Source: Candidatus Avipropionibacterium avicola (GTDB lineage Bacteria > Actinomycetota > Actinomycetes > Propionibacteriales > Propionibacteriaceae). Taken from it: a stretch of DNA of 14,575 bases. Made by a program: the position numbers and the translations under genes. Positions 1-14,575 of the stretch are shown one piece after another (position 1 is the first letter of the stretch; the number at the start of each line of letters is the position of its first letter). The stretch lies in the NCBI GenBank assembly GCA_018715445.1, contig DVLP01000442.1, positions 1 to 14,575 on the forward strand. Reading direction: 5' to 3'. The notes beneath the pieces are model-generated. The model was given only the letters and a program-made list of their open reading frames with translations, had not been told where the DNA came from and made no database searches.

Positions 1-160
1 CCCCTCGACGGGCTCGGGGGTCGGCGGGGGCTCGGGCTCGGGGTCGTGGCGGGGGACCCGGGTTCGGGGGTCGTGACAGCACGACTCCCCCTCGGCTGAG
101 GCTCGACCGAGGTCGGCGTCAGGAGGGGGAGTCGTTCGGTGTGGATTGTCAGGGGTCGGC
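1..160. other. G-rich region left of padR, no confident gene
   Basis: The first 80 bases are a low-complexity run of gggctcggg-like triplets on the + strand. Read in + frame 2 they give a Gly/Ser-rich peptide ending at TGA 74-76, immediately before a strong hairpin. This could be the tail of a convergent gene entering from the left. + frame 1 ends at TGA 97-99, and a minus-strand reading (GTG near 77-79) gives a Pro/Arg-rich peptide. With so few codons and such biased composition I cannot choose between these, so no CDS is called. The part from 136 to 160 holds nothing recognisable apart from a second in-frame padR stop at 149-151. Confidence 0.4.
81..135. terminator. Long hairpin, candidate bidirectional terminator
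   Basis: A perfect 13-base inverted repeat: left arm 81-93 (ACGACTCCCCCTC), right arm 123-135, with a 29-base loop that itself contains a short stem (104-108 with 111-115). It begins 26 bases after the padR stop on the minus strand and 5 bases after a possible + strand stop at 74-76. That placement suits a terminator between convergent genes. There is no T-run on either side, so it is not a classical intrinsic terminator. GC-rich actinobacteria often use such U-less stems, but termination here is inferred. Confidence 0.45.
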
Positions 161-1006
161 TCAGGACTCCGCATCGCCCTCGGCCTCGCCGGCCAGGGTG
201 AGGTAGAGCTCACGCTTGGCCTTGGTCAACACGCTGGCCGCGGCTGCCACCTGGCTCTCGTCTCCGCTCACGGCGATCTGACGGACCGCCACCTGGATGT
301 CGCGCAAGGCCGCGCGAAGGTCAGGCCCGGACCGTTGGTCGGTGAAGGCGGCGAAGGGATCGCCGAGCGTTTCGCCCTGCTGGGACAGGAAGTCCTGACC
401 TGCCGGGGTGAGGCTGGCGAGCCGTCGGCCGCCGTCCTGCTCGGTGGAGACCAGGCCCTCGTCCTCGAGTTGGGAGATCGTGGGATAGATCGCGCCGGCA
501 CTGGGGCTCCAGGCCCCGGACGTCCGGTCAGCGATGGTCTGCATCAGCTGGTAGCCGTGCATCGGTTCCTCGGCGAGCAGCAGCAGGACCGCTGCTCGGA
601 CGTCGCCGCGTTGGGCTCGTCCTCGACCGCGACCACCGCGACGGCCGGGTCCGCCACCGTGTCCACGGGGTCCACCGTGTTCGTGGGGTCCACCGTGCGG
701 CGGTCCGCCGTGCGGTCCACGTCCTTCTCGAGGTCCACGTCCTTCTCGGGGTCCGCGACCTTCTCGGGGTCCGCGGGGACCGGGTCCGCCTCGGCCACCT
801 CGGCCGCGCGGTCCTGGCCCTGCCGGCCGGTCGAAGTCGGGGCCACCGACCTCGGGTCCGTCGAACGGGGTGTCGTCGGGGCCGGGGCCCCAATCGTTGC
901 GGGGGTCATGGCCTCCGGGGTGGCGGCGGTCGATGTGTCGCCGTCCGCGACGGGGGTGGCGCTCGCCGTACCCGTCGAATCCTTGTGATCTGTTGATGTG
1001 ACTCAT
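161..1006 (-). CDS. PadR-family transcriptional regulator with Gly-rich N-terminus
   Basis: Predicted cytoplasmic DNA-binding regulator of 281 residues. The PadR winged helix-turn-helix is at about residues 134-215: RGDVRAAVLLLLAEEPMHGYQL (134-155) opens it, followed by SAGAIYPTISQLEDEGLV and the wing GRRLASLTPAG. PadR proteins are usually near 110-190 residues; the excess here is a 130-residue N-terminal extension of Gly, Pro, Arg and His, including three copies of GPREGR (residues 79-96). A helical C-terminus (about 245-281) fits the PadR dimerisation helix. The start ATG 1004-1006 has AAGGACGG about 9-12 bases upstream. The gene is divergent from the penicillin-binding lipoprotein gene, and a palindrome sits in its own promoter, which suggests autorepression. 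The ligand and other targets cannot be told from sequence. Confidence 0.88.
   Translation of the reverse strand: MSHINRSQGFDGYGERHPRRGRRHIDRRHPGGHDPRNDWGPGPDDTPFDGPEVGGPDFDRPAGPGPRGRGGRGGPGPRGPREGRGPREGRGPREGRGPHGGPPHGGPHEHGGPRGHGGGPGRRGGRGRGRAQRGDVRAAVLLLLAEEPMHGYQLMQTIADRTSGAWSPSAGAIYPTISQLEDEGLVSTEQDGGRRLASLTPAGQDFLSQQGETLGDPFAAFTDQRSGPDLRAALRDIQVAVRQIAVSGDESQVAAAASVLTKAKRELYLTLAGEAEGDAES
718..771 (-). repeat. 18-base tandem repeat inside padR (three copies)
   Basis: Three head-to-tail 18-base units at 718-735, 736-753 and 754-771, differing at only a few bases, encode the GPREGR repeats of the Gly-rich N-terminal extension. The in-frame unit length means copy number could change without breaking the reading frame. 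The neighbouring sequence 655-717 holds looser repeats that encode GGPHGG-like peptides. Confidence 0.85.
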
Positions 1007-1158: not shown

Positions 1159-3114
1159 ATGTCCGGATCACGCCTTCTCACCGCAGCCACCGCCCTGCTC
1201 CTGGTGGTGCTGATGGCCGGTTGCACGGGCGGGACGCCGCAGCGGCAGCGACCGGCCGAACCAGTCGATCCGCAGGTGGCCGCCCTGGTCGCCGGGCTGG
1301 CCGAGGGCGACCTGTCGCAGGTCCCGGCCAGCAGCAATGAGCTGGCCGAGGCCGACCTGGCCGACATCCTCAAGGGGATGGACGGGTACCTCCCGACGGT
1401 GACGGCCGACGAGCCCGGGTACGACGGCGGCCTCGCGACCGTCGTCCTGCACTACACCTGGCCATTCCCCAGCGGGGACTGGACCTACGACGCCACCGCC
1501 ACTTTCCGGGCCGACGACGACCGTTGGGTGCTGCAGTGGGAGCCGAGCCTGGTCCACCCCGAACTCACCTCGCAGTCCCGTCTGGTCCACACCCGGACAC
1601 AGGCCACCCGCGGCAAGATCGTCGGCAAGTCCAACACCGTCCTGATGAAGCAGATGCCGGTGCTGCGACTGGGGATCGACAAGACCAAGGTGTCGGGCCG
1701 CGACGCCGTCGACTCGGCGACCCGACTGGCCAAACTGCTCGACATCAATGCCAAGGCCTTCGTGCAACGGGTGCGCGACGCCGGCGACCAGGCCTTCGTC
1801 GAGGCCCTGGTGGTCCGGGGATCGCGGGCCGACGTCAGCCCGCGGTTCGGCGACATCGACGGTGCGGTGATCCTCGACGCCGAGCGCGTGCTGGCCACCC
1901 GCCCCGGGGTGGCCACGAACATCCTCGGCACCGCCGGTGAGGCCACGGCAGAGATCGTCGAGAACTCCGACGGGCGGGTCCAGCCGGGTGACACCGTCGG
2001 TCTCAGTGGCCTGCAACAGCGTTACGACGAGCAGCTCGCCGGCAAGCCCGGGGCCACCGTCACCCTGGTCCCTCGCCCCCCGGTGGTCATCGCCACAGAT
2101 CCCGAACCCTCGCAGGGCGCCAGCGGTCAGGCCGAGCCGAGCGACCCGGGCCAGAGCCCGGCAGCCACCCCGAGCGGGGAGCGCAAGGTCCTGGTCGAAT
2201 TGGACCCGGTGGCCGGCAAGAACGTGAAGACCACGCTCGACATCAAACTGCAGGCCCGTGCCGAGAAGCTGGTCGCCTCGTCGAAGTCACCGGCCGCGAT
2301 GGCGGTGGTCGACCCCAGGACCGGAGCCGTACGGGTGCTGGCCGTCAGCCGCAGTGCGCGGGGCCAACAGCTGGCCAACACCGGTCGGTACGCGCCGGGC
2401 TCCACCTTCAAGATCGTCACCGCCCTGGCGCTGCTGCGCTCCGGGCTCAAGCCGACCAGCACCGTCAACTGCCCGGCCACCACCACCGTCGACGGCCGGG
2501 TGATCAAGAACTACACCGACTTCCCGGCCGACCGGATCGGACGCATGAGCCTCACCGAGGCGATCGCGCTGTCCTGCAACACCGCCTTCGTCAACGAACG
2601 CGACCGGCTCTCGGGCAAGGCCCTGCGCGAGGCCGCAGCCAGCCTCGGCATGGGCGTCGACCATGACGCCGGTTTCCCCGTCTTCTACGGCGACGTCCCC
2701 AAGCCGGAGAACGTCGTCGGCCTGGCCGAGGCGAGCTTCGGGCAGGGCACCGTCCAGGCCTCACCCCTGGCGATGGCCGGGGTCGCGGCCTCGGTCAGCG
2801 CCGGACGCACCACGGTCCCGTACCTGATCGACGACAACCGCCCGAAGCAGAAGGGCAAGGCCCTCACCCGGTCCGAGGCCAAGGACCTGCGCACCATGAT
2901 GAGGGCGGTGGTCACCGCGGGCTCGGGACGCACGCTCAGTGGGCTGGCCACCGGCGCGAAGACCGGCACGGCCGAGTACGGCAACGCCAAGCCGCCCAAG
3001 ACCCATGCCTGGATGATCGCGTACAACTCCGATCTGGCCGTGGCGATGATGGTCACCGACGGCACCTCGGGCTCGGGGACCGCCGGGCCGTACATCCACG
3101 ACCTGCTCTCCTGA
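1159..3114 (+). CDS. Penicillin-binding lipoprotein (class B transpeptidase with MecA_N-like domain)
   Basis: Predicted D,D-transpeptidase that cross-links peptidoglycan on the outer face of the membrane; 651 residues. A lipoprotein signal (hydrophobic LLTAATALLLVVL, lipobox MAGC, lipidated Cys22) anchors it. Residues about 35-145 fit the NTF2-like MecA_N domain. About 150-345 is the PBP dimerisation domain, beginning near RGKIVG, with a Ser/Pro/Gln linker at about 314-344. About 355-651 is the transpeptidase. All three active-site motifs are present: STFK (nucleophile Ser415), SCN (472-474) and KTG (601-603). This architecture resembles the mycobacterial lipoprotein PBP Rv2864c. The ATG 1159 is chosen because it starts the signal peptide directly; its GGGAAG lies 10 bases upstream, within a hairpin. 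The rhomboid gene follows after 45 bases. Confidence 0.9.
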   Translation: MSGSRLLTAATALLLVVLMAGCTGGTPQRQRPAEPVDPQVAALVAGLAEGDLSQVPASSNELAEADLADILKGMDGYLPTVTADEPGYDGGLATVVLHYTWPFPSGDWTYDATATFRADDDRWVLQWEPSLVHPELTSQSRLVHTRTQATRGKIVGKSNTVLMKQMPVLRLGIDKTKVSGRDAVDSATRLAKLLDINAKAFVQRVRDAGDQAFVEALVVRGSRADVSPRFGDIDGAVILDAERVLATRPGVATNILGTAGEATAEIVENSDGRVQPGDTVGLSGLQQRYDEQLAGKPGATVTLVPRPPVVIATDPEPSQGASGQAEPSDPGQSPAATPSGERKVLVELDPVAGKNVKTTLDIKLQARAEKLVASSKSPAAMAVVDPRTGAVRVLAVSRSARGQQLANTGRYAPGSTFKIVTALALLRSGLKPTSTVNCPATTTVDGRVIKNYTDFPADRIGRMSLTEAIALSCNTAFVNERDRLSGKALREAAASLGMGVDHDAGFPVFYGDVPKPENVVGLAEASFGQGTVQASPLAMAGVAASVSAGRTTVPYLIDDNRPKQKGKALTRSEAKDLRTMMRAVVTAGSGRTLSGLATGAKTGTAEYGNAKPPKTHAWMIAYNSDLAVAMMVTDGTSGSGTAGPYIHDLLS

Positions 3115-3123
3115 GCCACGCCA

Positions 3124-3136
3124 CCGACGCTGTCGG
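3124..3136 (+). terminator. Short hairpin after the PBP gene
   Basis: CCGAC (3124-3128) and GTCGG (3132-3136) form a five-pair stem with a three-base loop, 9 bases after the PBP stop. There is no T-run. It may weakly end or attenuate the PBP transcript before the rhomboid gene, but a stem this short is common by chance in such DNA. Confidence 0.2.
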
Positions 3137-3146
3137 CAGGGGTCCG

Positions 3147-3152
3147 TACCCT
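3147..3152 (+). promoter_or_regulatory. Possible -10 box for leaderless rhomboid transcript
   Basis: TACCCT (3147-3152) fits the TANNNT pattern and ends exactly 7 bases before the ATG at 3160, the spacing typical of leaderless actinobacterial genes. There is no convincing Shine-Dalgarno before this ATG, which agrees with that reading. No -35 box is evident. The alternative is read-through from the PBP gene. Confidence 0.3.
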
Positions 3153-3159
3153 TGGGGCC

Positions 3160-3753
3160 ATGTCGATCACCGCCAGCCCGCAGCTGCGTCGCGAGACCAT
3201 GGTGCGCAGCCTGCCGCCGGTGGTGCTGGTCGCGCTGATGTGGATCAGTGAAGGGATCGACACCCTGCTGGGCGGAGCGCTCGACGCCTTCGGGATCCGA
3301 CCGCGGGAGGCCGAAGGGCTGATCGGTTTGGTGACCGCCCCCTTCCTGCACGACGGCTTCGCCCATCTGGTGGCCAACACCTCCACCTTCGTGGTGCTGG
3401 GCCTGCTGGTCGCCTGGCTGACCCGTTGGTTCTGGCTGGTGACCGTCGGGGTCGCCGTGCTCGGAGGCCTGGGCGTGTGGTTGTTCGGGGCCCCGCTCAC
3501 GGTCCACGTCGGCGCCAGCGGTCTGGTGTACGGCTATGCCGCCTTCCTCGTGGCGTACGGGTTGGTCGCGCGGCGCGTGACCGCGGTGATCGTCGCGGTG
3601 GTGGTCTTCCTGGTCTACGGCAGCATCGTGTGGGGAGCGCTGCCGGGCGAGGCCGGGGTCTCCTGGGAGGGGCACCTGTTCGGCGCGGTCGCCGGAGTGC
3701 TGCTGGCGGTGTGGTGCGGACGCCGTGACCGCAAGCCGGTCCGGAGGCCCTGA
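3160..3753 (+). CDS. Rhomboid-family intramembrane serine protease
   Basis: Small rhomboid of 197 residues, predicted to have about six membrane helices and to cut substrate transmembrane segments within the bilayer. The catalytic pair is visible: GASG with nucleophile Ser120 and the general base His172 in SWEGHLFGAVAG. The upstream HDGFAHLVAN (His64, His69, Asn73) matches the conserved rhomboid histidine/asparagine segment that shapes the oxyanion site. Length is that of a minimal six-helix bacterial rhomboid with no extra soluble domain. It lies 45 bases after the PBP gene, and is followed by a 138-base spacer before the tubulin-like cluster, so it may be a separate unit. The substrate is unknown; the nearby single-span VWA protein is a candidate by inference only. 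Confidence 0.9.
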   Translation: MSITASPQLRRETMVRSLPPVVLVALMWISEGIDTLLGGALDAFGIRPREAEGLIGLVTAPFLHDGFAHLVANTSTFVVLGLLVAWLTRWFWLVTVGVAVLGGLGVWLFGAPLTVHVGASGLVYGYAAFLVAYGLVARRVTAVIVAVVVFLVYGSIVWGALPGEAGVSWEGHLFGAVAGVLLAVWCGRRDRKPVRRP

Positions 3754-3891: not shown

Positions 3892-4488
3892 ATGTCGGAG
3901 CAGAATCCTTGGGACTTCAGCGATCTCAGCGAGTCCCAGAACGCCTCGCCGCCGCCTGCTGGATCCGGGTTCGGTGCCGCTCCGCCCAACGGACCTGCGA
4001 CAGCGCCACCGTTCGCGGCGAGCTCGGCCACGCCGGCGACGATGCCGGCCACCGACCAGCAGCAACCCGGCGCCCCGTTCGCCCCGGCGGACGGACCCTT
4101 CGGGCCCGGTGCCCTCGATGCCGCGACGCCCGCGCCGGCCGGTGTCCCCGCCGCCTTCGGTGACTCCGCTCCCGCCGCACGGTTGGACACCTCCCGCGCT
4201 CCGGTGCAGTGGTTGTTGATCGCCGGTGGCCTCGCCGTGGTGGGGATCGTGGTGGCCCTGGTCCTGGGCGGGTTGCCGCCGGTGGCGATCGCCGCCTGGC
4301 TGATCGCCGGTCCGATCGGGATCGGCTGCCTCGCGTTCTTCACCACCCGTGACCTCAAGGCCCGTACGGGAGCGGTGTACCTGGCCCAGAGTTGGGTGCG
4401 ACCGCTCTACTGGGTGGCGTTGGTGTTGTGCTTTGCCGGAGCGATGGTCGCGGCCTGGCGGATTGCGGAGTGGGTGGGTCGACTGTGA
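3892..4488 (+). CDS. Three-helix membrane protein with Pro/Ala-rich N-terminal tail
   Basis: Unrecognised protein of 198 residues. Residues 1-103 are disordered-looking (Pro, Ala, Gly, Gln) and begin with the short conserved-looking peptide NPWDFSDL (5-12). Hydrophobic helices lie at about 107-127, 130-151 and 172-194, with RDLKARTG and QSWVR between the second and third. No signal peptide is visible, and by the positive-inside rule the basic 153-170 loop suggests a cytoplasmic N-terminus is possible; topology is not certain. The ATG has GGAG 7 bases upstream. The stop overlaps a GTG in the VWA gene frame (GTGA at 4485-4488), so the two are probably translationally coupled. It is the first gene of the tubulin-like cluster, and its NPWDFSD resembles NPFEFGD at the end of the VWA protein. 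Probably a membrane partner of that complex. Confidence 0.8.
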   Translation: MSEQNPWDFSDLSESQNASPPPAGSGFGAAPPNGPATAPPFAASSATPATMPATDQQQPGAPFAPADGPFGPGALDAATPAPAGVPAAFGDSAPAARLDTSRAPVQWLLIAGGLAVVGIVVALVLGGLPPVAIAAWLIAGPIGIGCLAFFTTRDLKARTGAVYLAQSWVRPLYWVALVLCFAGAMVAAWRIAEWVGRL

Positions 4489-4502
4489 GGACAGGGACTG
4501 CG

Positions 4503-7500
4503 ATGGGCACTGCACAGCGGCGACGTCGACGCCTCGGCATCTGGGCGCTCCTGCTGGGCGTCATCGCCAGCCTCGGACTGCCGGGGGCCGCACCGGCCAA
4601 CGCTGCCGACTCGGCCGTCGACGTGTACGGCGGCTGCCTGGTCTCGGAGAAGGCCGGCGACATCATGATCGTGATCGACGAGTCGCAGAGCCTCGACGCC
4701 AACGACCCCGACAACGCCCGGATCACCTCCGCGAAGTACCTGCTGACCCAGCTCAACAACTTCGCCAAGCGCACCAAGGTGACCCTCGACGTCAACGTGG
4801 CCGGGTTCTCCCACAACTACGACGAGGCCCAGGGATGGACCAAGCTGGACGACTCCGGGCTGAAGAAGACCCTGGAGACCGTCGACGGGTTCGCCGATCG
4901 TCCGTACGGCTGGGAGACCGACTACTGGATGGCCCTCGAAGGGGCGCGGCGCTCCCTGGCCGACCACAACCCCGACGGTGACCGTTGCCAGGCACTGGTG
5001 TGGATCACCGACGGCAGCCTCGACCTCGACTTCCGCAAGAACCAGCAGCAGATCAACGACTACGGCGAGACCAAGCCGTACCTGTCCGACACCAAGCTCA
5101 CCAGCAAGGCGGCCGAGGAGAAGGCCGAGGCCGAGGCCGAGCGTCAGATCTGTCGCAACGGGGGACTGGCCGACCAGCTCCGCTCCTCCGACGTCACCCT
5201 GTTCGGCGTTGGGTTGCGGGGCGAGGAGTCCCCGGACTACACGTTGATGAAGTCGATCGCGCTCGGCGGGGACGCCGGTGGGCAGAAGTGCGGCAAGATC
5301 ACCAAACCACCGGGCAGCTTCACCGAGGCCGCCGACATCGACCAACTGCTTTTCGAGTTCGACAAGTTCTCCACGCCGAACCAGGAGCGCAAGGACACCG
5401 AGTCCGGTGTCTGCCAGGGCGAGCCCTGCCCGGAGGAGCGTCACACCTTCGTGCTGGACGATTCGGTCCAGTCGGTCCACATCTTCGGCAACTCCGACGT
5501 CGACGAGGCCGAGGTCTATCTGGTGACGCCCGAGGGGGACGAGCTCAAACTCGACCGGGGCACGATCGGCGACTCCGAGAAGACCGACTCCGACGACGTG
5601 ACCATCGAGCATTCCTGGCAGTCCGAGCGCACGATCGTGATCGACATGTCCGCCAGCGCCGGGGCCAAGGGATGGTCCGGACCGTGGTCGGTGGTGTTCG
5701 TCGACCCGACGGGGCAGTCACCCGACGGCAAGTCACGCACCTCCATCTCGATCGCCGGCGATGTCTTCCCGACCTGGCCGGACGCCGAGGACGCCCAGGT
5801 GCGTTCCGGTGAGCCGAACCAGATCCAGTTGGGTCTGGTGAACGCCGACGGCGACGAGATCGACTCGACCAAGCTGCTCGGCAAGGTGTCGATGGATGCG
5901 ACCCTGCAGACCGCCGACGACCAGGAGATCCCGCTCGCCCAGGGCCTCGACGGTGAAGGGATTGCCCAACCCCTCGACCTGGACCTGACCAATGTCGCTC
6001 CCGGCGAGGCAACCCTGGTGCTCTCGCTGACGATCACCACCAAGGACGCCACCGACTCCGAGGGCAAGACGGTGCCCGGCACCGAACTCAAGCCCCAGAC
6101 CGTACGGATCCCGGTGCAGATCGAGCCGCCGCCCGGCTACCCGTCGGTGAGCGGCCAGGTGAACTTCGGGGCCCTCGAGGGCAAGGCCGAAGGAGCACCG
6201 GGTGAGTTGACGGTCGCCGGCCCGGGTTGTGTCTGGGTGGAGGGCAACGGCGCGCCCAACGTGCTCGCAGGACCGGAGCAGATCGGTGAGGTGTCGATCA
6301 GCTCGACCCACAACTCGGCCGAGAACTGCCTCGAGATCCCCGACGGCCAGACCGCGACGCTGCCGCTGCAGCTGACCACCGAGGGGATGGACAACGGCAC
6401 GCTGAACGCCGAGTTCACCGTCAAGATCGCCCCGACCGGTGAGCCGGACCGGGTGCAGGATGCGACCGCATCGGCGACCGCCAGCTTCGAGAAGCCGCTC
6501 AACCCGGTCAACTTCACCCTGACGCTGATCGTCGCAGCGATCCTCGGCCCGGGCATCCCGCTGGCCCTGCTGTACCTGATGAAGTTCCTGACGGCCAAGA
6601 TCCCCGGCCGGGCCCTGATCGCCGAGGAGTACCCGGTCCAGGTCGAGGCCGGGCAGGTGCTGCGTGACGGTGGGCGCTTCGAGCTCAAGGACCGCGACCT
6701 CACCACGGGGATGGTGCCGCTGGCCAACAACGGATCCCGGACCGCTCAGGCGGGCTCGGTCACGTTGAACGCCAAGATGGGTGCCTCACCGTTCGGCGAG
6801 GGGTACGTCGAGGTCGAGTCACCCGGACGGATCGGGGCCTCCTCCTCGGACACCCGGGGTCACGGCAAGGAGTCGTACGCGCGACTCCCGCTCAACGTGC
6901 ACAACCACTGGGTGCTGCTCCAGGACCCGAACGGTCCGGCCGACAGCGCCACGGTGCTGTTGCTGGTCGCCGCCGATGCCCCGGCCGAGGTACGGGAGAA
7001 GTTGGTCGACGACATCAACGCCCGGGTGCCGGACGTGCTGGAGGCAATCCGGATGCAGGTCGGCGCACCGTCGGGCGGTGGTGACGGATCACCGTTCGGC
7101 GGGGGACCCGGCGGCGACGGTGGGCCCCAGCCCGGCGGCCCGGCTCCGTTCGACTTCGGACCGGACATGTCCGGCGGTCCGGGCGGGGCGAACCCGTTCG
7201 GTGACCCGGGCCAGGCCCTACCGCCAGGTGGGCCCGCCCCGATGGGTGGACCGGCCCCGATGGGCAGTGCTGCTCCCGGCCCTGTGCCGACTCCCAGCGG
7301 ACAGGCAAGTGCGCCGCCGGCGAGTGCCGCCTCGGCACCGGGGAGTGCGAACCCGTTCGACGGCGGCGGGCAGAATCCGTTCGCCCAGAGTGGGGACGCC
7401 AATCCGTTCGCCCAGGGTTCGTCCGCGCAGGGTTCGTTCGCGCAGGGATCGCCGCAAGCGGCCCCGCAGCAGTCGGCTTCGCAGCAGTCGGCTCCGCAAC

Positions 7501-7949
7501 CTCCTGCTCAGCAGCAGTTCGGTCAACCTGCTCAGCAGCAGTCGGCCCCGCAACCTCCTGCCCAGCAGCAGTTCGGCCAACCTGCCCAGCAGCAGCAGCC
7601 CGCTCAGCAGCAGCCCCACCAGGGCGCTCCGGAGCAGGCCGGCTGGGGACAGCAGCAGCCGATGGAGCAGCCTCCCGCGCAGCAGCCGCCGGCCCAGCAG
7701 CCGCCGGCCCAGCAGCCGCCGGCCCAGCAGGGTCAGCAGCCGCCAGCCCAGCAGGGTCAGCAGCAGTGGGGTGGCCCAGCGAGCCAGCAGCCGTCGGCAC
7801 CCGGTTCCGTACCGCAGGAGCCGGCGTCGGCGCCGAGTAGCGCCGGAGAGCCCGGCCCGGATCAGGAGCCACAGTTCCGACCGGAGGCCCCGCCCCCGGG
7901 GACACAGATCCGCAACCCCTTCGAGTTCGGGGACAATTCTGGAAGGTGA
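4503..7949 (+). CDS. Membrane-anchored VWA-domain protein with Gly/Pro/Gln-rich cytoplasmic tail
   Basis: 1148 residues from ATG 4503, chosen for AGGGA five bases upstream; GTG 4485 in the same frame overlaps the previous stop and would add six residues. A signal peptide (five Arg, hydrophobic 11-26, cleavage near ANA34/A35) exports the N-terminus. The VWA domain spans about 53-290 with a complete metal site: DESQS (Asp59, Ser61, Ser63), Thr139 and ITDG (Asp170). Beta-rich, Cys-containing regions follow to about 665, and one transmembrane helix lies at about 671-693. A cytoplasmic domain (about 694-850) leads into a low-complexity tail (about 855-1148) of Gly, Pro, Gln with NPF motifs at 897, 950, 958, 967 and 1138. 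MIDAS domains bind protein ligands through a divalent metal. It lies 79 bases upstream of the tubulin-like gene. Ligand and exact role are unknown. Confidence 0.88.
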   Translation: MGTAQRRRRRLGIWALLLGVIASLGLPGAAPANAADSAVDVYGGCLVSEKAGDIMIVIDESQSLDANDPDNARITSAKYLLTQLNNFAKRTKVTLDVNVAGFSHNYDEAQGWTKLDDSGLKKTLETVDGFADRPYGWETDYWMALEGARRSLADHNPDGDRCQALVWITDGSLDLDFRKNQQQINDYGETKPYLSDTKLTSKAAEEKAEAEAERQICRNGGLADQLRSSDVTLFGVGLRGEESPDYTLMKSIALGGDAGGQKCGKITKPPGSFTEAADIDQLLFEFDKFSTPNQERKDTESGVCQGEPCPEERHTFVLDDSVQSVHIFGNSDVDEAEVYLVTPEGDELKLDRGTIGDSEKTDSDDVTIEHSWQSERTIVIDMSASAGAKGWSGPWSVVFVDPTGQSPDGKSRTSISIAGDVFPTWPDAEDAQVRSGEPNQIQLGLVNADGDEIDSTKLLGKVSMDATLQTADDQEIPLAQGLDGEGIAQPLDLDLTNVAPGEATLVLSLTITTKDATDSEGKTVPGTELKPQTVRIPVQIEPPPGYPSVSGQVNFGALEGKAEGAPGELTVAGPGCVWVEGNGAPNVLAGPEQIGEVSISSTHNSAENCLEIPDGQTATLPLQLTTEGMDNGTLNAEFTVKIAPTGEPDRVQDATASATASFEKPLNPVNFTLTLIVAAILGPGIPLALLYLMKFLTAKIPGRALIAEEYPVQVEAGQVLRDGGRFELKDRDLTTGMVPLANNGSRTAQAGSVTLNAKMGASPFGEGYVEVESPGRIGASSSDTRGHGKESYARLPLNVHNHWVLLQDPNGPADSATVLLLVAADAPAEVREKLVDDINARVPDVLEAIRMQVGAPSGGGDGSPFGGGPGGDGGPQPGGPAPFDFGPDMSGGPGGANPFGDPGQALPPGGPAPMGGPAPMGSAAPGPVPTPSGQASAPPASAASAPGSANPFDGGGQNPFAQSGDANPFAQGSSAQGSFAQGSPQAAPQQSASQQSAPQPPAQQQFGQPAQQQSAPQPPAQQQFGQPAQQQQPAQQQPHQGAPEQAGWGQQQPMEQPPAQQPPAQQPPAQQPPAQQGQQPPAQQGQQQWGGPASQQPSAPGSVPQEPASAPSSAGEPGPDQEPQFRPEAPPPGTQIRNPFEFGDNSGR
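7482..7586 (+). repeat. 54-base-period repeat in the VWA tail
   Basis: Two 51-base units, 7482-7532 and 7536-7586, separated by one CAG codon, both encode QQSAPQPPAQQQFGQPA and differ only at third codon positions. Silent differences show the peptide has been kept while the DNA drifted, so this is not a recent duplication. Confidence 0.8.
7680..7730 (+). repeat. 15-base tandem repeat (QQPPA) in the VWA tail
   Basis: Three identical 15-base units CAGCAGCCGCCGGCC at 7680-7694, 7695-7709 and 7710-7724, plus the first six bases of a fourth. They encode QQPPA repeats in the Pro/Gln-rich part of the cytoplasmic tail. Perfect identity suggests recent slippage and possible length variation between strains, always in frame. 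Confidence 0.85.
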
Positions 7950-8028
7950 CCCTCGCTCACGATGAGCTGGGGCTTACGCTTCCGATGGTGAGACGTATGA
8001 CCTGCACGACGACGGAGGAGACTGAACT
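7950..8028 (+). promoter_or_regulatory. Spacer before the tubulin-like gene with strong ribosome binding site
   Basis: This 79-base gap holds GCTCA/TGAGC (7955-7959 with 7963-7967), a five-pair stem with a three-base loop and no T-run. It also has GGAGGAG at 8014-8020, eight bases before GTG 8029, a near-perfect Shine-Dalgarno that fixes the GTG as the start of the tubulin-like gene. TATGAC (7996-8001) could be a weak -10, with no good -35. It is the largest gap within the cluster apart from the one at 14246, so some independent expression is possible. Confidence 0.45.
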
Positions 8029-11000
8029 GTGAGGCGTTTTCTGGTCGTGGGTTGCGGTGGTTCCGGTGGAGCCACCCTGGCCTACATGATGGATCAGCTC
8101 AGCTCTGACCTCGCTGTGTGGGGCAAGACGCTGCCCAAGGGGTGGCAGTTCGTCCACATCGACGTGCCGTCGGGTGAGGAAGCCGGCCCCAACGGCCTGG
8201 GCAATGTCCAGGTGCAGGGTGGCCGCTACCTCGGGCTCGGCCCGCAGTCGGGAAGCTACGGCGACCTCGACCACGCCCTGAGCCAGAAGCTGACCGGGTC
8301 GCGCGGGTTGGAGCACATCGCGACCTGGGCGCCTCGTGCCCCGCAGTCGGTGCCCACCCCGATCTCGGTCGGTGCGGGCCAGTACCGCGCGGTCGGCCGG
8401 GCCATCACCCTGGTCCGTGCCGGGGACGTGCGTCAGGCGATCCAGCAGGCCTACGACGATCTGTTCCGGGTCGAGACCACCACCGAGATGAGTGAGCTCG
8501 CCCGGGCAGCCGGGGCCCGCTTCGAGCCGAATGAGCCCCCCATCGTGCTGGTGGTCTCGTCGATGGCCGGCGGCGCCGGTGCCTCGATGGCGCTCGACGT
8601 CTGCCGCCTGATGAGCCTGGCCGGGGTCGACCCCCGCCTGATGGCGGTCTTCATGGTCAGCGCCGACATCTTCGATGCGCTGCCCGAGTCCGCCCGGACC
8701 GGTGTGCGTGCCAATGCCCTGGCCATGCTCGGCGAGATCGTCGCCTCGCAGGCCGGGTCGTCGCGCGCCCACGACGTCGATGTGCTGTCCGCCCTCGGCC
8801 ATCGTGACGGTGCCGGGGCCGAGGTCCCGTTCGCCCGGGTGTTCCCGGTGGGGCGCAAGATGGGCGCCCAGCAGACCACCTTCGGCGGGGGCCGTCCCGA
8901 CGACGTCTACCGCGGGTTGGCCCGTGGACTGGCCGGGATGATGGTCTCCTCGGTCGCCACCTCCCAGTTCCAGCAGTTCGACCTCGGCAACACCGGCTCG
9001 GTCAGCCCCGACCCGAAGTACTTCGGGTGGGCCGCCAACGCCGATCCGCTGCCGTGGGGTTCGTTCGGCTTCGCCTCGCTCAGCATGGGTCGCGACCGGT
9101 ACGCCGAGTACGCCGCCCAGCGTCTGGCCCGCGGATCGGTCGACCGTCTGCTCGACGGCCACCTCCAGCCGGGCAACCCGGCCTCCAGTCTCGAACAGCT
9201 CAACACCCTGCTCGACTCGCAGTGGGGTGCGATCTGCAACCAGCTCCAACTCCCGGTCGGCGGGCCCAACCCAGCCGGTGAGCTCGGCAACTGGATGACC
9301 GGGGCCGCCCTGCCCCGGCAGGCCGCCGAAGGCGCCGCCCGCCATGTCACCGACAACGAGGTGGCCGGCTACATCCCCAACCCCGACGGGCAGCAGGCCT
9401 CGCAGTGGATGGTGATGCTGCAGCACCAGCTCAACGCCCGTCGCCATCCCCTGACCGAGGCCTCCAACGCCGCCGCCTACGAGTGGGTCTTCCGCTGGAA
9501 GGACGAGCTGCTCTCCCGCATCGAGTCGGTCACCGGGGACAACCTCACCCGGCTCGGCCTGCCCTATGCGGCGGGCCTGCTGGACCGTCTGGCCACCCAC
9601 CTCAAGGAGTACGTGATCCCTGGGGCCGAGTCGCTGTCCCAGCACACCCCGAACGACATCGTCGCGCTGCCGCCGCAGGTGCAGCAGACGATGGCCGGGG
9701 TGAAGGGTGTGGTCAGCAACGGTGCCCAGATCCACGAGATGATCGTGACCGGGATCCGTGGCCAGGTCCGGACCCAGATCTACGCCCACGCCTCCGGACT
9801 GGTAGCCCAGGTCCTCAAGGGCGTGCTCAGCGAGGTGCTGCCGCAGTTGGTCGACAGCCTCAAGGACACCCAGCGACTGTTGGAGAACGCCCGCAGCGCC
9901 GATGTCCGTCACGACGGCCTCGCCCAGCTCGCCACCGCCCAGTACGGCGCCTGGCCCAGCGACAACGACGCCCAGGTCCCGAGCCGGTTCGACGAGGCCA
10001 ACAACGAGATCCTGCTGACCACCTCGCGCCAGTTCATGAACCAGTTCGTCGCCGACGTGCAGCGGGCGATCCCGGACGGCCCGACGAACCTGCACGGCGC
10101 CCGTGAGGCGGTCCTCAGCTCGGTGGTCTCCGGTCGGTGGCAGACCACCGGCGGCGAGCAGGCCCCCGGTGGGCTGATGGAGCGCACCAGCGACTGGCGT
10201 CCCCGCTCGTTCGCCTTCGACCCGCTCTCGGGTGACTCGATCGTGCCGTCGCAGGCCCGTTACGACGTCCACGTCCGACCCGCCGAACTGCTCGAACGGG
10301 CCCGGATGTTCGTCGCGCGCCGCGGTGAGTCGTTCGACCGGTTCGTCTCGTTGTCGCTGCGCGACTTCGTCTCCGGGGTCGACGCCCCCGAGTCGGAGAA
10401 GGCCCAGCGCTCCCGTGACCTGGCATCCAAGTTCGCCGAGACCCTTTCGCTGGCGATGCCACTGATCAGCGTCAACGACAAGGCCGTCCAGGCCCTGCAC
10501 GGCCGCGACGTCGAGTACCGCTACAAGTTCTCCACGATCCCGTTCGCCGATCTGCCGATCGTGGGGGACCTGCGCAAGGTGTTGGAGTCCAACCCGCGCA
10601 TCGACGAGTCCTCGATGTCCAACCTCAACAAGGCGCTGTCGGACCAGGGTGACCCGCGCCGGGTCGACGTGTTCGGCTCGTACCCGCTCTATTCACCGTT
10701 GGCCTTCGAGTCCGTCCTCAAGCCGGTCGGCGTCCAGTGGGGTTCGACCCCGCCGGCGGGTCGCTCCGGGTTCTGGACCTACCGACGGGCCCGTCCGCTG
10801 GACGCCAGCCTGCCGATGGGTGACACCGAGCGACGGGCGATGGTGGCCGGCTGGTTCCTCGGCCAGGTGCTGGGGGAGCTGCGGCTGCCGGAGTCCCCGT
10901 ACGACCGCCCGGTCGAGATCTGGGACCGCGACGCCGGCAACTGGGCGGCGTTCCCGAACCCGCTGCTGACCCCGCCGGGATCGTTCCGGGCCACCTACGA

Positions 11001-11556
11001 CTGGCTGCCCGCGGTGCTGGAGTCGATCCTGCTGGCCCAGACCCGGGTGCACGAGACACCGGTGATGGCGAGCCTGCGGCCGTACGTGCTGCTGCGTGAG
11101 ATCTACGACTCGAACCCGCTCGGCACCTCGACCGGCATCCTCGACAAGGAGGGTGAGCGTCGCCTTGCCGAGTGGTTGCGTGACGGTCGTACGGCTTCGG
11201 GCATCCCGTCGCGGGTGCCCGCGATCGCCCAGGCCAGCACGGCCGAGGAACGGGCCGAAGCCGCCAAGCAGTGGCTCACCCAGATCGGTGACCTCGCCGG
11301 GACCCACTTCATGGGCCGTGGCCAGAGCGGTGCCCCCGGTGGTGGCAGCTTCTCCGAGATCGCCAGCCGCGACCAGGCCTCGCAGACGCCGATCTTCCGC
11401 GACCTCGCGCCGGACATCTTCCAGATGGTCGGGGAGTTGCAGGGCATGGTCGACCGGGCCCTGCAGCGCTCGCAGCAGGCCGAGGCGCCGGTCCAGGACC
11501 TGGGCGGGGCGCCGAAGTCGACCTCGATCCAGATGCCTGACGGAGGAGTGTTCTGA
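8029..11556 (+). CDS. Tubulin/FtsZ-superfamily protein (Tubulin_2 / FtsZl-like)
   Basis: 1175 residues. The N-terminus FLVVGCGGSGG (4-14) is the nucleotide-binding T1 loop form seen in the Tubulin_2 family, followed by a buried strand ending in FVHIDVPSGEE. The tubulin signature is at MAGGAGAS (179-186), preceded by strand PIVLVVSS. It is a relaxed version of GGGTG[ST]G. The later segment PWGSFGFASLSMGRDRYAEYAAQRL (about 343-367) also reads like this family. The remainder (about 370-1175) is helical and not recognised; no membrane helix or signal is seen, so it is cytoplasmic. Family members were proposed from gene context (Makarova and Koonin, 2010) to act in membrane remodelling with VWA proteins, the arrangement found here. 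GTP binding and polymerisation are inferred. GTG start has GGAGGAG eight bases upstream; the next gene begins four bases after the stop. Confidence 0.8.
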   Translation: MRRFLVVGCGGSGGATLAYMMDQLSSDLAVWGKTLPKGWQFVHIDVPSGEEAGPNGLGNVQVQGGRYLGLGPQSGSYGDLDHALSQKLTGSRGLEHIATWAPRAPQSVPTPISVGAGQYRAVGRAITLVRAGDVRQAIQQAYDDLFRVETTTEMSELARAAGARFEPNEPPIVLVVSSMAGGAGASMALDVCRLMSLAGVDPRLMAVFMVSADIFDALPESARTGVRANALAMLGEIVASQAGSSRAHDVDVLSALGHRDGAGAEVPFARVFPVGRKMGAQQTTFGGGRPDDVYRGLARGLAGMMVSSVATSQFQQFDLGNTGSVSPDPKYFGWAANADPLPWGSFGFASLSMGRDRYAEYAAQRLARGSVDRLLDGHLQPGNPASSLEQLNTLLDSQWGAICNQLQLPVGGPNPAGELGNWMTGAALPRQAAEGAARHVTDNEVAGYIPNPDGQQASQWMVMLQHQLNARRHPLTEASNAAAYEWVFRWKDELLSRIESVTGDNLTRLGLPYAAGLLDRLATHLKEYVIPGAESLSQHTPNDIVALPPQVQQTMAGVKGVVSNGAQIHEMIVTGIRGQVRTQIYAHASGLVAQVLKGVLSEVLPQLVDSLKDTQRLLENARSADVRHDGLAQLATAQYGAWPSDNDAQVPSRFDEANNEILLTTSRQFMNQFVADVQRAIPDGPTNLHGAREAVLSSVVSGRWQTTGGEQAPGGLMERTSDWRPRSFAFDPLSGDSIVPSQARYDVHVRPAELLERARMFVARRGESFDRFVSLSLRDFVSGVDAPESEKAQRSRDLASKFAETLSLAMPLISVNDKAVQALHGRDVEYRYKFSTIPFADLPIVGDLRKVLESNPRIDESSMSNLNKALSDQGDPRRVDVFGSYPLYSPLAFESVLKPVGVQWGSTPPAGRSGFWTYRRARPLDASLPMGDTERRAMVAGWFLGQVLGELRLPESPYDRPVEIWDRDAGNWAAFPNPLLTPPGSFRATYDWLPAVLESILLAQTRVHETPVMASLRPYVLLREIYDSNPLGTSTGILDKEGERRLAEWLRDGRTASGIPSRVPAIAQASTAEERAEAAKQWLTQIGDLAGTHFMGRGQSGAPGGGSFSEIASRDQASQTPIFRDLAPDIFQMVGELQGMVDRALQRSQQAEAPVQDLGGAPKSTSIQMPDGGVF

Positions 11557-11560
11557 GGCG

Positions 11561-14245
11561 ATGACGACCCCCGCATCCTCCCCGAACCCCTCGGCCCTGA
11601 CGGTCCTGCTCGCCGCGCCCGGGACCATGAACGCGGTCCGCGATGCGCTGACCGACTGGTCGGCGGTCGGGCTGGTCCAACCGTTCCTGTGGATCGACAG
11701 CTCGGGTGTGCAGCCGCACCATGTGCCGGCGCTCGGGATCGCCGACGGCCGCCCGCACGGCACCACCGTCCAGCACGCCCTGTCGGGCACCCGTTACGCC
11801 CGGATCCGGATCTGCTCGTTGGTCCCGTTGCTGGGGGCCAACGACGATCCGGCGACCACCCCGGTCGATGCCGCCGTCGAGGCGCAGATCGCCCAACTCG
11901 TGCTGGCCAACGCCCAGGCGAAGGTCGAGCTGGTGCGCTGCCTGGTGGCCCGCCCCGACGCCGCGCCCCGCTCCGAGGTGGCCCGGGAGGGTTGGCACAA
12001 CATCCTGATCAGCCCGGAGGACAGCCGGGGCCCGGGGCTGGGACGCACCGTGTTCACCGAGGACGACGACCCGCTGCACGTGGCCGGACCGGCCGCAGCG
12101 GCGATCGCCGGGCTGACCGGGTTGTGGACCGGGATCGGCGAGGCCCCGCTCGACGACGTCAGCCCGCCGCCGGGCCGCACCGTCCGACTGGCACGGACCT
12201 TCACCCGGGGCTTCACCGCCGCCGAGGTCGAGCAGCAGGTCCGGGCCGGGGTGCTCACCACCGAGGACGGCCTGCCGGCGCCACGCCAGCAGAGTGCGAT
12301 GTCGGTCCATGCCGAGGACGTGCCGGCCGCGACCTCGGCGATGGCCTCGGCGCTGTGGCACAAGCACCGCTCGATCCTGCGAGGCCCCCGTGCGACCGCC
12401 GCGCCCGAGACCGCCCAGGAGATCGGGGGAGGCCAGGCCTTCAAGATGTTCATGGGCTTCCTGTGGAACTCGTTGAAGGGCTCGCCGACGCGCTGGTACA
12501 CCGGCGTCGTCCACGCGGTCAGCTCGGCCACCGCCAAGGTCACCCACGAAATGGTCTTCGGAGCCGCGCCCTCCTCGTACGCCGTGGTGGTCGGGGGTGT
12601 CCGCGCCGACGGCAACCCGGCCGGATGGGAGGACCTCGCGCTGGCCTCGAGCCAGATGTCGGAGGCGCTCAACCAGGGTCAGCACCAGCAGGCCGCTCCG
12701 GCCGACCTGTCGACGGTGATGAAGGACTACGTGGCCGGAGCGATGACCCTGGCCGACGGCGGCGACCACGCCCACGGCATGCCACCGATCCAGATCGGCC
12801 CGGACCGTGCTGTGCTGCGTGATCCGTCCGACTGTGCCCCCGGACCGCAGGACAACCTGCAGATCCCGACCCATCTGGTCGACCAGGTCGGCTACCCGAG
12901 CCTGCACCCCAGTGATCTGCTGGGCACCCAGATGGCCCGGGCCCGACTCGGGGAGGCCTCCCGCAACCAGCACCTGGCCGTCGAGGCCGACCGGGTCGAC
13001 GCCGAGATCCAGGGCTGGCAGCAGCGGTTCGCCCGCTCGTACCCGGTCCAGGTCGGCAACACCTTGGTGCGCCAGATCCAGTCGACGGCCGGCGAAGTCC
13101 GCAGCCTGCTGAACAACATCCAGTCCGCGGCCGAGGTCCCGGACCTGAGCGGGGAGATCCAGGCCAAGCAGCGCAGCCTGGCGCTGGCGATGCGGATCGT
13201 GCTGGGGGCCTTCCTGGTCTTCCTGGCCGCCGACATCGTGGTGGCGGTCAAGGACCTGATCCTGGTCAAGCACGCGGTCTGGATCGGGATCGGGCTGCTG
13301 CTGTTGTGGTTGATCGTCACCGGGGCGATGTTCTTCACCGGTCAACGCGCGCTGTTCGGTGAGCTGCACCGACGACGGGTGGCGGCCGGGCAGGCCGAGG
13401 TGAACCGGGAGAACCTGCGCCATGCCAGCAACGACCTGAAGCGTCTCACCGAGACGTACGGGCACTACCTGGTCTGGAGTCGGATCGCCGGAGCGGCGAT
13501 CGCCCAACCCTTCGGGCCGGCACCGCAGGTCGCCCCCGACCCCGAGCCGATCAGCGCCGGGCTGCCGATGGCGACCCGCTTCGGCGTCGCCGAGGTGCAG
13601 CCCGACCAGGTCTCGCGGGCCGTGGTGACGATCCGGCGTGACCTGTACCGGATCGGGTGGATGACCGTGCCCTGGGAGCAGTTGCTCGCCGAGGCCGGCG
13701 CCCGGATCGGTCCGGACGGGTACGAGGTCAGCGAACGACCCGACCGGTTGTTCGGGATGGCGCCGGGTCCGCAGTCGCTGCTCTCGCGCTGGGCCGACGT
13801 GCTCGAGCACCAGGGCACCGGGACCACTTCGGGCAACCAGATCTGGCAGTACGTGCTGGGCACCTTCGACGGCCCGCAGGCCGAGCTGAAGGAGTCGTTG
13901 GTGACCCAGGTCCGGGTCGGCGCCGGTGGTCCCCGTGGGGTGACCAGCCAGCCGATGGCCGACTTCATGGCCAATGTCGACCTGGCCGGTCAGGCCGGGC
14001 AGGTCGGTCCGCAGTCGTTCGACGGGGCCGTGCTGTCGGTCGGCGCCCGGATGGGTTCGCGGACCGCGGTCACCCAGCAGTGGAGCCGGGGGTCCGGCAG
14101 CGGGCTGGCCCGGACCGTGGTCCTGGTGCAGCTGGGTGACGGGTTCCCCGACTACGAGCTGGCCATGCTCGACCAGAGCCTGGATGCCCCGCAGCACACG
14201 CAGGCCAAGCTGGGCAGTGAGGACGCGGCCACGTGGACCTTCTGA
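11561..14245 (+). CDS. Unrecognised 894-residue protein with membrane helical hairpin and flanking coiled coils
   Basis: I do not recognise a family. Residues 1-470 look soluble and mixed alpha/beta, beginning with strand ALTVLLAAPG after a short disordered start; no P-loop or protease motif is visible. Residues about 485-540 are heptad-like and hydrophilic, two transmembrane helices lie at about 546-563 and 572-592, and a second basic helical stretch follows to about 640. The result is a membrane hairpin with both large ends on the same, probably cytoplasmic, side. Residues about 665-894 form another soluble region ending in ATWTF. ATG 11561 lies four bases after the tubulin-like stop; GGAGGAG at 11542-11548, inside the previous gene, is 12 bases away. 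The tight spacing argues for co-expression and a physical link to the tubulin-like protein, perhaps as its membrane adaptor. Confidence 0.82.
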   Translation: MTTPASSPNPSALTVLLAAPGTMNAVRDALTDWSAVGLVQPFLWIDSSGVQPHHVPALGIADGRPHGTTVQHALSGTRYARIRICSLVPLLGANDDPATTPVDAAVEAQIAQLVLANAQAKVELVRCLVARPDAAPRSEVAREGWHNILISPEDSRGPGLGRTVFTEDDDPLHVAGPAAAAIAGLTGLWTGIGEAPLDDVSPPPGRTVRLARTFTRGFTAAEVEQQVRAGVLTTEDGLPAPRQQSAMSVHAEDVPAATSAMASALWHKHRSILRGPRATAAPETAQEIGGGQAFKMFMGFLWNSLKGSPTRWYTGVVHAVSSATAKVTHEMVFGAAPSSYAVVVGGVRADGNPAGWEDLALASSQMSEALNQGQHQQAAPADLSTVMKDYVAGAMTLADGGDHAHGMPPIQIGPDRAVLRDPSDCAPGPQDNLQIPTHLVDQVGYPSLHPSDLLGTQMARARLGEASRNQHLAVEADRVDAEIQGWQQRFARSYPVQVGNTLVRQIQSTAGEVRSLLNNIQSAAEVPDLSGEIQAKQRSLALAMRIVLGAFLVFLAADIVVAVKDLILVKHAVWIGIGLLLLWLIVTGAMFFTGQRALFGELHRRRVAAGQAEVNRENLRHASNDLKRLTETYGHYLVWSRIAGAAIAQPFGPAPQVAPDPEPISAGLPMATRFGVAEVQPDQVSRAVVTIRRDLYRIGWMTVPWEQLLAEAGARIGPDGYEVSERPDRLFGMAPGPQSLLSRWADVLEHQGTGTTSGNQIWQYVLGTFDGPQAELKESLVTQVRVGAGGPRGVTSQPMADFMANVDLAGQAGQVGPQSFDGAVLSVGARMGSRTAVTQQWSRGSGSGLARTVVLVQLGDGFPDYELAMLDQSLDAPQHTQAKLGSEDAATWTF

Positions 14246-14250
14246 GGCAC

Positions 14251-14271
14251 GCTCGCTGCGAGGGAGCGAGC
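14251..14271. repeat. Hairpin between the 894-residue protein gene and the next gene
   Basis: GCTCGCT (14251-14257) and AGCGAGC (14265-14271) form a perfect seven-pair stem with a seven-base loop, six bases after the stop at 14245. No T-run follows. It might reduce read-through, stabilise the upstream mRNA, or be a dispersed palindromic repeat; a genome-wide copy count would decide. The gap it sits in (14246-14318) otherwise shows only the ribosome binding site of the next gene. Confidence 0.4.
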
Positions 14272-14318
14272 CGAAGCACCGGGGGCGAGGGCACCATGTC
14301 GACAGGAAGGGGAGCTGA

Positions 14319-14575
14319 GTGAACGCCGGGCCAGCAGACGCCGAAGGCGCGTTGCAGCGTCTGAAGATGTGGCGGGACCGTGCAGCGGCCGACGGTCAGC
14401 CGGGCGCCGACAGCATCCGTGACATCCACCTCACCATGGTCGCCCGGTCCGGGCGCCGCATCCCCTCGGCGATCGCCGAGGTCCTGCCCCAGTCGCTGAA
14501 GAGCTTCTCCGACCAGATGGCCCGTGCGATGGTCCAGCCGGCGCGTCAGGCCCCACCCCCCGCAGGCCAGCCGGT
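14319..14575 (+). CDS. Unrecognised protein, N-terminal part only (runs off window)
   Basis: The reading frame is open from GTG 14319 to the window end, 85 full codons. GGAAGGGGAG (14305-14314) upstream is a strong ribosome binding site and selects this GTG. The N-terminal part is soluble: an amphipathic helix with LQRLKMWRDRAAAD (about 12-25), then DSIRDIHLTMVARSGRRIP (about 31-49), a helical segment AEVLPQSLKSF, and the start of a Pro/Ala-rich stretch (about 71-85). No signal peptide or membrane helix appears in the visible part. It is 73 bases after the previous gene, on the same strand, so it probably belongs to the tubulin-like cluster. No function can be assigned from this fragment. Confidence 0.7.
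   Translation, partial: MNAGPADAEGALQRLKMWRDRAAADGQPGADSIRDIHLTMVARSGRRIPSAIAEVLPQSLKSFSDQMARAMVQPARQAPPPAGQP

Follow-up and report, generated by a model that had tools for sequence, protein, structure and literature searches.

The window analyzed here is the complete contig C404 (14,575 nucleotides) of a draft genome of Candidatus Avipropionibacterium avicola in 469 contigs. The system in question lies on its forward strand and comprises a small membrane protein (TM1), a von Willebrand factor A (vWA) membrane protein (VWA1), a tubulin-like protein (TUB), a membrane-hairpin protein (MEM), and the beginning of a gene of the FN3 family (Table 1). The window is almost certainly the first half of an eight-gene actinobacterial operon of the tubulin type of GAP1-N2/DO-GTPase systems. 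An earlier reading made from the letters alone (the sequence-only reading) listed five rightward genes, and all five were found as open reading frames (ORFs), the fifth leaving the contig end. The fifth ORF stands as read, and its product, for which no assignment had been offered, is now recognized as the start of an FN3 family protein.

The remainder of this FN3 gene is located on contig C216 of the same genome (L098:14133-16208, minus strand), and both contigs end within the Pro/Gln-rich linker of FN3. Comparison of the window with C216 gave no exact end overlap of >10 bases, and the adjacency of the two contigs therefore rests on gene content and on a same-genus genome, that of an uncultured Propionibacteriaceae bacterium (G318; TUB 91% identical), in which the cluster is in one piece. 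There, MEM is followed by a 765-aa FN3, a 1106-aa GAP1 (GAP1-N2, 3e-21; GAP1-M, 1e-9), a 342-aa VWA2, and a 385-aa zinc-ribbon GTPase (DO-GTPase2, 1.9e-6). On C216, profile searches found GAP1-N2 (1.5e-22) and GAP1-M (7e-12), and the GTPase matched DO-GTPase2 (6e-6; 26.5 bits, just under the cut-off of 27) and a double zinc ribbon (0.0013); a Pfam DO-GTPase2 search of genomes missed this copy. The GTPase of the same-genus locus L022 exceeds the cut-off (28.1 bits), and GAP1 with N2 and M domains is likewise present there. VWA2 is vWA-like by eye, all vWA profile matches of its family being subthreshold.

The window holds no GTPase because the contig ends there. The sequence-only reading took this absence for a biological feature, and the finding of GTPase, GAP1, and VWA2 genes on C216 overturns it; a Gram-positive variant without a GTPase is ruled out. 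The suggestion of a different partner set also falls, as GAP1, VWA2, and the GTPase follow from the same FN3 gene family on C216 and in the unbroken same-genus cluster.

Table 1. Features of the tubulin-type cluster in the window
Feature	Coordinates	Strand	Size and basis
TM1	3892-4488	+	198 aa; ORF
VWA1	4503-7949	+	1148 aa; VWA_2 PF13519, 1e-7
TUB	8029-11556	+	1175 aa; Tubulin_2 PF13809, 6.3e-45
TUB T1 glycine loop, GCGGSGG	8050-8070	+	Sequence
TUB T4 signature, SSMAGGAGAS	8557-8586	+	Sequence columns
TUB helical insertion inside the tubulin fold, residues ~377-655	9157-9993	+	Model; borders by eye
TUB low-confidence C-terminal tail, ending MPDGGVF	11479-11553	+	Predicted local distance difference test score <50; tail comparison
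MEM	11561-14245	+	894 aa; ORF
MEM transmembrane hairpin (approximate)	13178-13330	+	Hydropathy of relative L042; helices in model
FN3 family gene, first 85 codons	14319-14575	+	ORF leaving contig end

Domain architecture of the window proteins

Profile search bears out the assignment of TUB as a Tubulin_2-type protein (154 bits against a cut-off of 27). In the structure model, TUB has a tubulin fold with both domains and consists of an N domain, an insertion seen as helices, a C domain, an extra C-terminal helical region, and a tail that is probably disordered. By model and fold match together, an FtsZ-like domain lies at the N terminus, with an extended helical region and an alpha-helical C-terminal region after it, and the fold match to CetZ spans 1..911 with 310 aligned residues. 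The T1 (GxGGSG) and T4 (MAGGxG) motifs are both present in 43/43 TUB ORFs, a count that sets aside L072, L078, and L081 as short or frame broken, and columns S177 to S186 are invariant save A183. A sequence search of the Protein Data Bank returned no tubulin among the TUB matches and nothing useful for MEM. TUB is distinct from the cell division FtsZ of the genome, which is encoded separately: a genome search for PF00091 found one match, on C22, outside the window.

MEM has an alpha/beta N domain, a middle region of coiled coil and transmembrane hairpin, a C domain ending in a beta hairpin, and a tail. The predicted membrane hairpin was recovered at approximately residues 540 to 590 (model helices 530 to 563 and 569 to 648). 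The GTP-binding signature GGGTG[ST]G is absent from the MEM consensus on reading, and profile comparison of MEM with TUB or FtsZ was negative, as was the TUB-FtsZ control. The commonest weak match is DUF2207_C, found in 17/34 MEM proteins (best, 0.0011), with none under 0.05 for the MEM of the window. Assignment to SLATT/DUF4231, a name given to one relative in the database, was rejected, as DUF4231 is weakly matched in only 3/34 (best, 0.047). In one genome (G247), the MEM-like protein (L037:5587-8838) of a locus of the four-gene kind described below is fused to a trypsin-like peptidase (Trypsin_2, 1.3e-28), and in L166 (G548) and L167 (G402), MEM apparently consists of two genes, the second holding the membrane spans and a TUB-like tail.

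TM1 has an N-terminal tail with an NPWDFSD motif and then approximately three helices; hydropathy gives three helices in 31/37 called family members and two in 6/37, in keeping with the three-helix protein first described, and the family profile matches at the same place in 43/46 named loci. Neither TM1 nor MEM has an above-cut-off profile match. VWA1 comprises a signal-peptide-like start, a vWA domain, a beta-rich region recognized by eye, one later span, and a Pro/Gln-rich tail with NPF motifs; neither FNIII nor the beta-rich region had a profile match. The metal ion-dependent adhesion site (MIDAS) of the window protein is DESQS, and 43/43 aligned VWA1 proteins conform to D-x-[ST]-x-[ST] at this column (35/44 and 33/44 by cruder regular expressions), which agrees with the single-span VWA protein with an intact MIDAS of the sequence-only reading.

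Linkage, distribution, and the four-gene core

The neighborhood survey covered 46 named loci found via close TUB matches, so that linkage is conditional on TUB. Gene order and strand are identical in 46/46, and all eight families were detected by family hidden Markov models (HMMs) in 40/46. Contig ends truncate three of the six incomplete loci (L067, L072, and L078); L081 begins inside TUB and has broken frames, and in L074 and L076 only VWA2 is unmatched, with a 293- or 296-aa ORF in its place. TUB thus matches a tubulin profile and the genes travel together, the two points on which the sequence-only reading had made itself depend. Frames of both TUB and MEM are repeatedly broken in L081 (Rhodococcus sp. 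JCM 9791), perhaps reflecting sequence quality.

The named loci belong to Propionibacteriaceae, Mycobacteriaceae, Nocardiaceae, Gordoniaceae, Corynebacteriaceae, Microbacteriaceae, and Actinomycetaceae. A quick TUB tree, for which the program warns of long branches, places 6/7 listed genera each as one group, and Rhodococcus needs three changes. Distribution is patchy: TUB occurs in 10/57 genomes of a Propionibacteriaceae sample (two of the ten as pieces), and Tubulin_2 occurs in 10/296 genomes at phylum level and 27/394 at class level, the own genome counted. GAP1-N2 was found in 7/296 genomes of the phylum sample and co-occurs with Tubulin_2 only in the window's own genome; the Corynebacterium glutamicum control genome has matches to Tubulin_2, GAP1-N2, and DO-GTPase2.

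The phylum and class samples together hold 34 distinct Tubulin_2 genomes (G000, G123, and G230 being in both). Neighborhoods were taken for the other 33, with TUB found by the gene caller in 31/33. Four of these loci (L161 to L164) follow the eight-gene pattern to the limit of the sequence taken, and two of them, L162 (G561) and L164 (G637), have an extra small membrane gene of 139 and 199 aa, respectively, between MEM and FN3; G637 also has a second GAP1-N2 locus elsewhere in the genome. Six genomes (G230, G247, G294, G632, G548, and G402) encode a small membrane protein, VWA1, TUB, and a MEM-like protein, with no other family match in the stretch. Family HMMs matched VWA1 and TUB in 6/6 of these and MEM in 5/6; the protein of G230 is MEM-like by place and architecture only, and MEM is split in two genes in G548 and G402. 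Whole-genome searches for GAP1-N2 were positive in 0/6 four-gene genomes and in 5/5 eight-gene genomes. Alignment searches for GTPase relatives found 0/6 and 3/3, respectively, and missed three genomes of the A type defined next, so that divergent GTPases are possible in four-gene genomes.

Twelve loci, termed A type, have TUB, then a membrane protein (12/12), and then a weak GTPase family match (21 to 40 bits); the VWA1 HMM matched the gene preceding TUB in 4/12. The protein 3' of TUB is a putative MEM homolog, and these mostly large genomes are taken by us to be Streptomyces/Micromonospora kin. The other nine of the 31 neighborhoods were truncated, without clear pattern, or without a GTPase match. 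As the four-gene loci show no GTPase half, the half held by the window looks constant and the GTPase half optional, which suggests that TM1-VWA1-TUB-MEM is a four-gene core.

Mean pairwise identity over 31 loci was highest for the GTPase (48.0%) and TUB (47.7%), followed by VWA1 (38.5%), FN3 (34.7%), MEM (33.1%), TM1 (32.6%), GAP1 (28.9%), and VWA2 (27.7%). In eight close pairs, the ratio of nonsynonymous to synonymous substitution rates (dN/dS) was always <1, with several dS values near saturation; it was lowest for TUB or the GTPase in 8/8 and highest for GAP1 in 4/8, TM1 in 3/8, and VWA2 in 1/8, and GAP1 had the lowest identity in 5/8. These rates carry the caveats that stop-to-stop ORFs may include noncoding codons and that the GAP1 N terminus is of low complexity. 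If any component meets a changing partner, these values favor GAP1 over FN3 for that role.

By profile search, the genes upstream of TM1 encode a PadR regulator, a MecA_N domain penicillin-binding protein, and a rhomboid protein. The latter two (1159-3753; weak rhombosortase match for the rhomboid protein) lie directly upstream on the same strand, and similar-sized genes occupy their position in the same-genus locus L042. Downstream of the GTPase, both L098:3224-6896 (C216) and L022 have flotillin-like, NfeD-like, and major facilitator superfamily transporter genes by eye. Five Corynebacterium loci (L065, L066, L068, L069, and L079) share antiporter-like and groEL-like flanks by eye, with no visible defense island.

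Terminal tails shared within loci

The last 4 to 8 residues of TUB and MEM are alike within loci (24 loci, <70% TUB identity; z of 4.6 to 5.8, 0/5000 permutations each), and the same test on the last 6 residues of 27 other protein pairs gave z values of -2.5 to 1.8. Examples are MPGEDLF/MPGEDLF (L087), EREFL/DREFL (L160), and VDTGV/YDSGI (G230). A second draw of 23 loci, 14 of them A type, gave z values of 5.4 to 6.2 (0/3000), the two sets being partly dependent because some second-draw loci (e.g., L161) look near to first-set loci; in this draw, TUB and the gene two upstream also reached z values of 2.3 to 2.6 for the last 6 to 8 residues. The six four-gene loci gave z values of 3.5 to 4.0 (22 to 116 of 20,000 permutations), with the second downstream gene taken as MEM for L166 and L167 after the tails had been viewed, a choice not made in the 23-locus draw. 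All of these permutations ignore kinship. The pairing is carried by Corynebacterium (2/720 permutations, the true one included), Actinomyces, and four-gene or distant loci, and the TUB-MEM tail likeness is a clade-limited effect. Its presence in four-gene loci suggests that whatever protein reads the peptide belongs to the four-gene set itself or to the host.

A second set of tails links TM1 and VWA1. In 31 loci each (<85% TUB identity), the motif [ND]P[FW] was counted 32 times in TM1 N-terminal tails (1.9 ± 1.3 in shuffles) and 54 times in VWA1 C-terminal tails (2.5 ± 1.6 in shuffles), and the reversed motif was found 0 times in either. In 24 loci, the aromatic five-mers of the TM1 and VWA1 tails resemble each other more within a locus than across loci (z of 4.05, 0/10,000 permutations), and twelve control comparisons gave z values of -1.6 to 1.5. 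Some TM1 starts were guessed, and a few tails (e.g., L057 and L086) include upstream codons outside the gene. In L164 of G637 and L037 of G247, the small transmembrane protein and VWA1 share C-terminal residues (RDSW/DDSW and ELPIH/DLPIS, respectively), possibly a C-terminal form of the same pairing.

Interpretation and relation to known systems

The explanation that fits best as a whole, and that we regard as rather probable, combines the operon identity with an envelope-sensing tubulin scaffold under a GTPase switch. The mechanism itself is proposed only tentatively. The vWA domain of VWA1 would lie outside the membrane and act, metal dependently, as an envelope or ligand sensor, and TM1 and VWA1 would be joined intracellularly via their matching aromatic NPF/DPF-type tails. 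TUB would bind GTP and assemble at the inner membrane face on MEM, its putative anchor, which has a similar C-terminal peptide in several lineages. The cytosolic zinc-ribbon DO-GTPase with GAP1, FN3, and VWA2 would be an add-on switch setting the scaffold on or off, and the membrane would be remodeled or sealed after an envelope insult or invasion, the presumed trigger. Membrane remodeling by the cluster, raised in the sequence-only reading, is a hypothesis.

A degenerate tubulin fold is possible for MEM. In a bolder proposal, which we hold with less than even confidence, MEM would be a second tubulin superfamily protein, degenerate and membrane embedded, its hairpin interrupting the fold as the helical insertion does in TUB. 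TUB and MEM would then form a mixed membrane-rooted tubulin assembly with a C-terminal peptide coevolving in several lineages, TM1 and VWA1 would be paired by the second tail set, and TM1-VWA1-TUB-MEM would be an autonomous machine with the DO-GTPase/GAP1 half as a dispensable regulator. To our knowledge, a membrane-spanning tubulin relative would, if true, be new to the cytoskeleton field. An autonomous four-protein machine would also reverse the published assignment of core and effector, in which DO-GTPase/GAP1 is constant and tubulin the variable component (PMC7159879). It is about as likely as not that MEM is instead an ordinary membrane adaptor of the coiled-coil type whose alpha/beta domain is unrelated; the FtsZ match and the tails would then be coincidental or reflect a shared signal for degradation or processing.

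Several results weigh against the scaffold explanation. In Foldseek searches, neither TUB (best, 1.4e-3, to FtsZ) nor MEM had a match under 1e-3. Pfam FN3 and HRDC had no match with an E value of ≤1 in seven FN3 family proteins, and the HRDC match of the FN3 fragment in the window is weak (E value of 0.93). TUB-MEM tail pairing is null inside each of two sets of eight loci, one of Nocardiaceae/Gordonia/Mycolicibacterium and one mixed and chosen by hand (Propionibacteriaceae/Microbacteriaceae/other) that holds the window's relatives, unclear in 14 A-type loci (z of 1.4 to 2.0), and reduced to a shared final F in the window's genus. The [ND]P[FW] motif is not universal, being present in 18/31 TM1 and 22/31 VWA1 tails.

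Kaur et al. proposed that such operons are conflict (anti-invader) systems, with GAP1 and FN3 as invader sensors, the DO-GTPase as the switch, and TUB assembling to contain the invader or kill the cell. The gene set equals their actinobacterial theme, and the low identity and high dN/dS of GAP1 and the patchy distribution agree with such a role, which we nevertheless judge unlikely. The gene set does not vary among the named loci, where a conflict system would be expected to exchange its effector, TUB or the GTPase is the most constrained component in every close pair, and the TUB tree, subject to its long-branch warnings, keeps most genera together. Searches by tblastn found the cluster in no phage record and, of 72,556 plasmid records, on two Rhodococcus megaplasmids only, and PADLOC-DB 2023, searched with one representative per family (eight in all) and with the FN3 fragment of the window, gave no match with an E value of ≤0.01 (single stray match, TM1, 0.049). 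A housekeeping-like membrane remodeling or vesicle machine with no conflict role, after Makarova and Koonin, is also doubtful: membrane proteins within the constant core, strong constraint on TUB, occurrence of the core without the GTPase half, and a tree mostly following genera speak for it, but TUB is dispensable, as its frequency in its own family indicates.

Operons of tubulin, vWA, and GTPase genes were predicted in 2010 (PMC2875224) and 2020 (PMC7159879), and no experimental study of them was among the matches listed in a literature search. As new leads, the analysis suggests a four-gene core, tails paired within loci, and a possible pseudo-tubulin nature of MEM. Two protein pairs (TUB-MEM and TM1-VWA1) and two kinds of short peptide could be tested in C. 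glutamicum, whose control genome has the matches named above.

The actinobacterial version is not new: an actinobacterial clade is contained in the 2010 paper of Makarova and Koonin, a reviewer of which mentions vWA proteins from C. glutamicum and Micromonospora (PMC2875224), and an actinobacterial tubulin theme with GAP1-N2 and DO-GTPase was described by Kaur et al. in 2020 (PMC7159879). The tubulin theme accounts for ~52% of GAP1-N2 neighborhoods, firmicutes and actinobacteria together, and its actinobacterial form resembles the present cluster in having a single tubulin whose C-terminal region is helical, GAP1-N2/GAP1-M, a zinc-ribbon DO-GTPase, and a membrane vWA protein in Actinobacteria (PMC7159879). 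The description of the tubulin theme in that paper mentions no MEM- or TM1-like protein, tails, or stand-alone core. The theme includes an FNIII repeat protein fused to HRDC and a membrane-bound vWA protein that has FNIII and a beta-rich domain; at the sensitivity of Pfam, HRDC and FNIII were not confirmed here. The repeats of the FN3 protein are called rapidly evolving, whereas here GAP1 is less conserved than FN3 (PMC7159879). The relation to the FtsZl1 system drawn by the sequence-only reading holds, given the strong Tubulin_2 match within a tubulin superfamily/vWA membrane cluster; the systems share a Tubulin_2 protein, a vWA protein, a GTPase, and lineage-specific membrane proteins, and differ in that the five genes of the window have no OmpA or kinase match in profile searches (PMC2875224). 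The FtsZl1 authors report no C-terminal similarity by sequence, whereas the model gives TUB both tubulin domains (PMC2875224). TUB differs from CetZ, FtsZ, and TubZ by its large helical insertion and additional C-terminal region.

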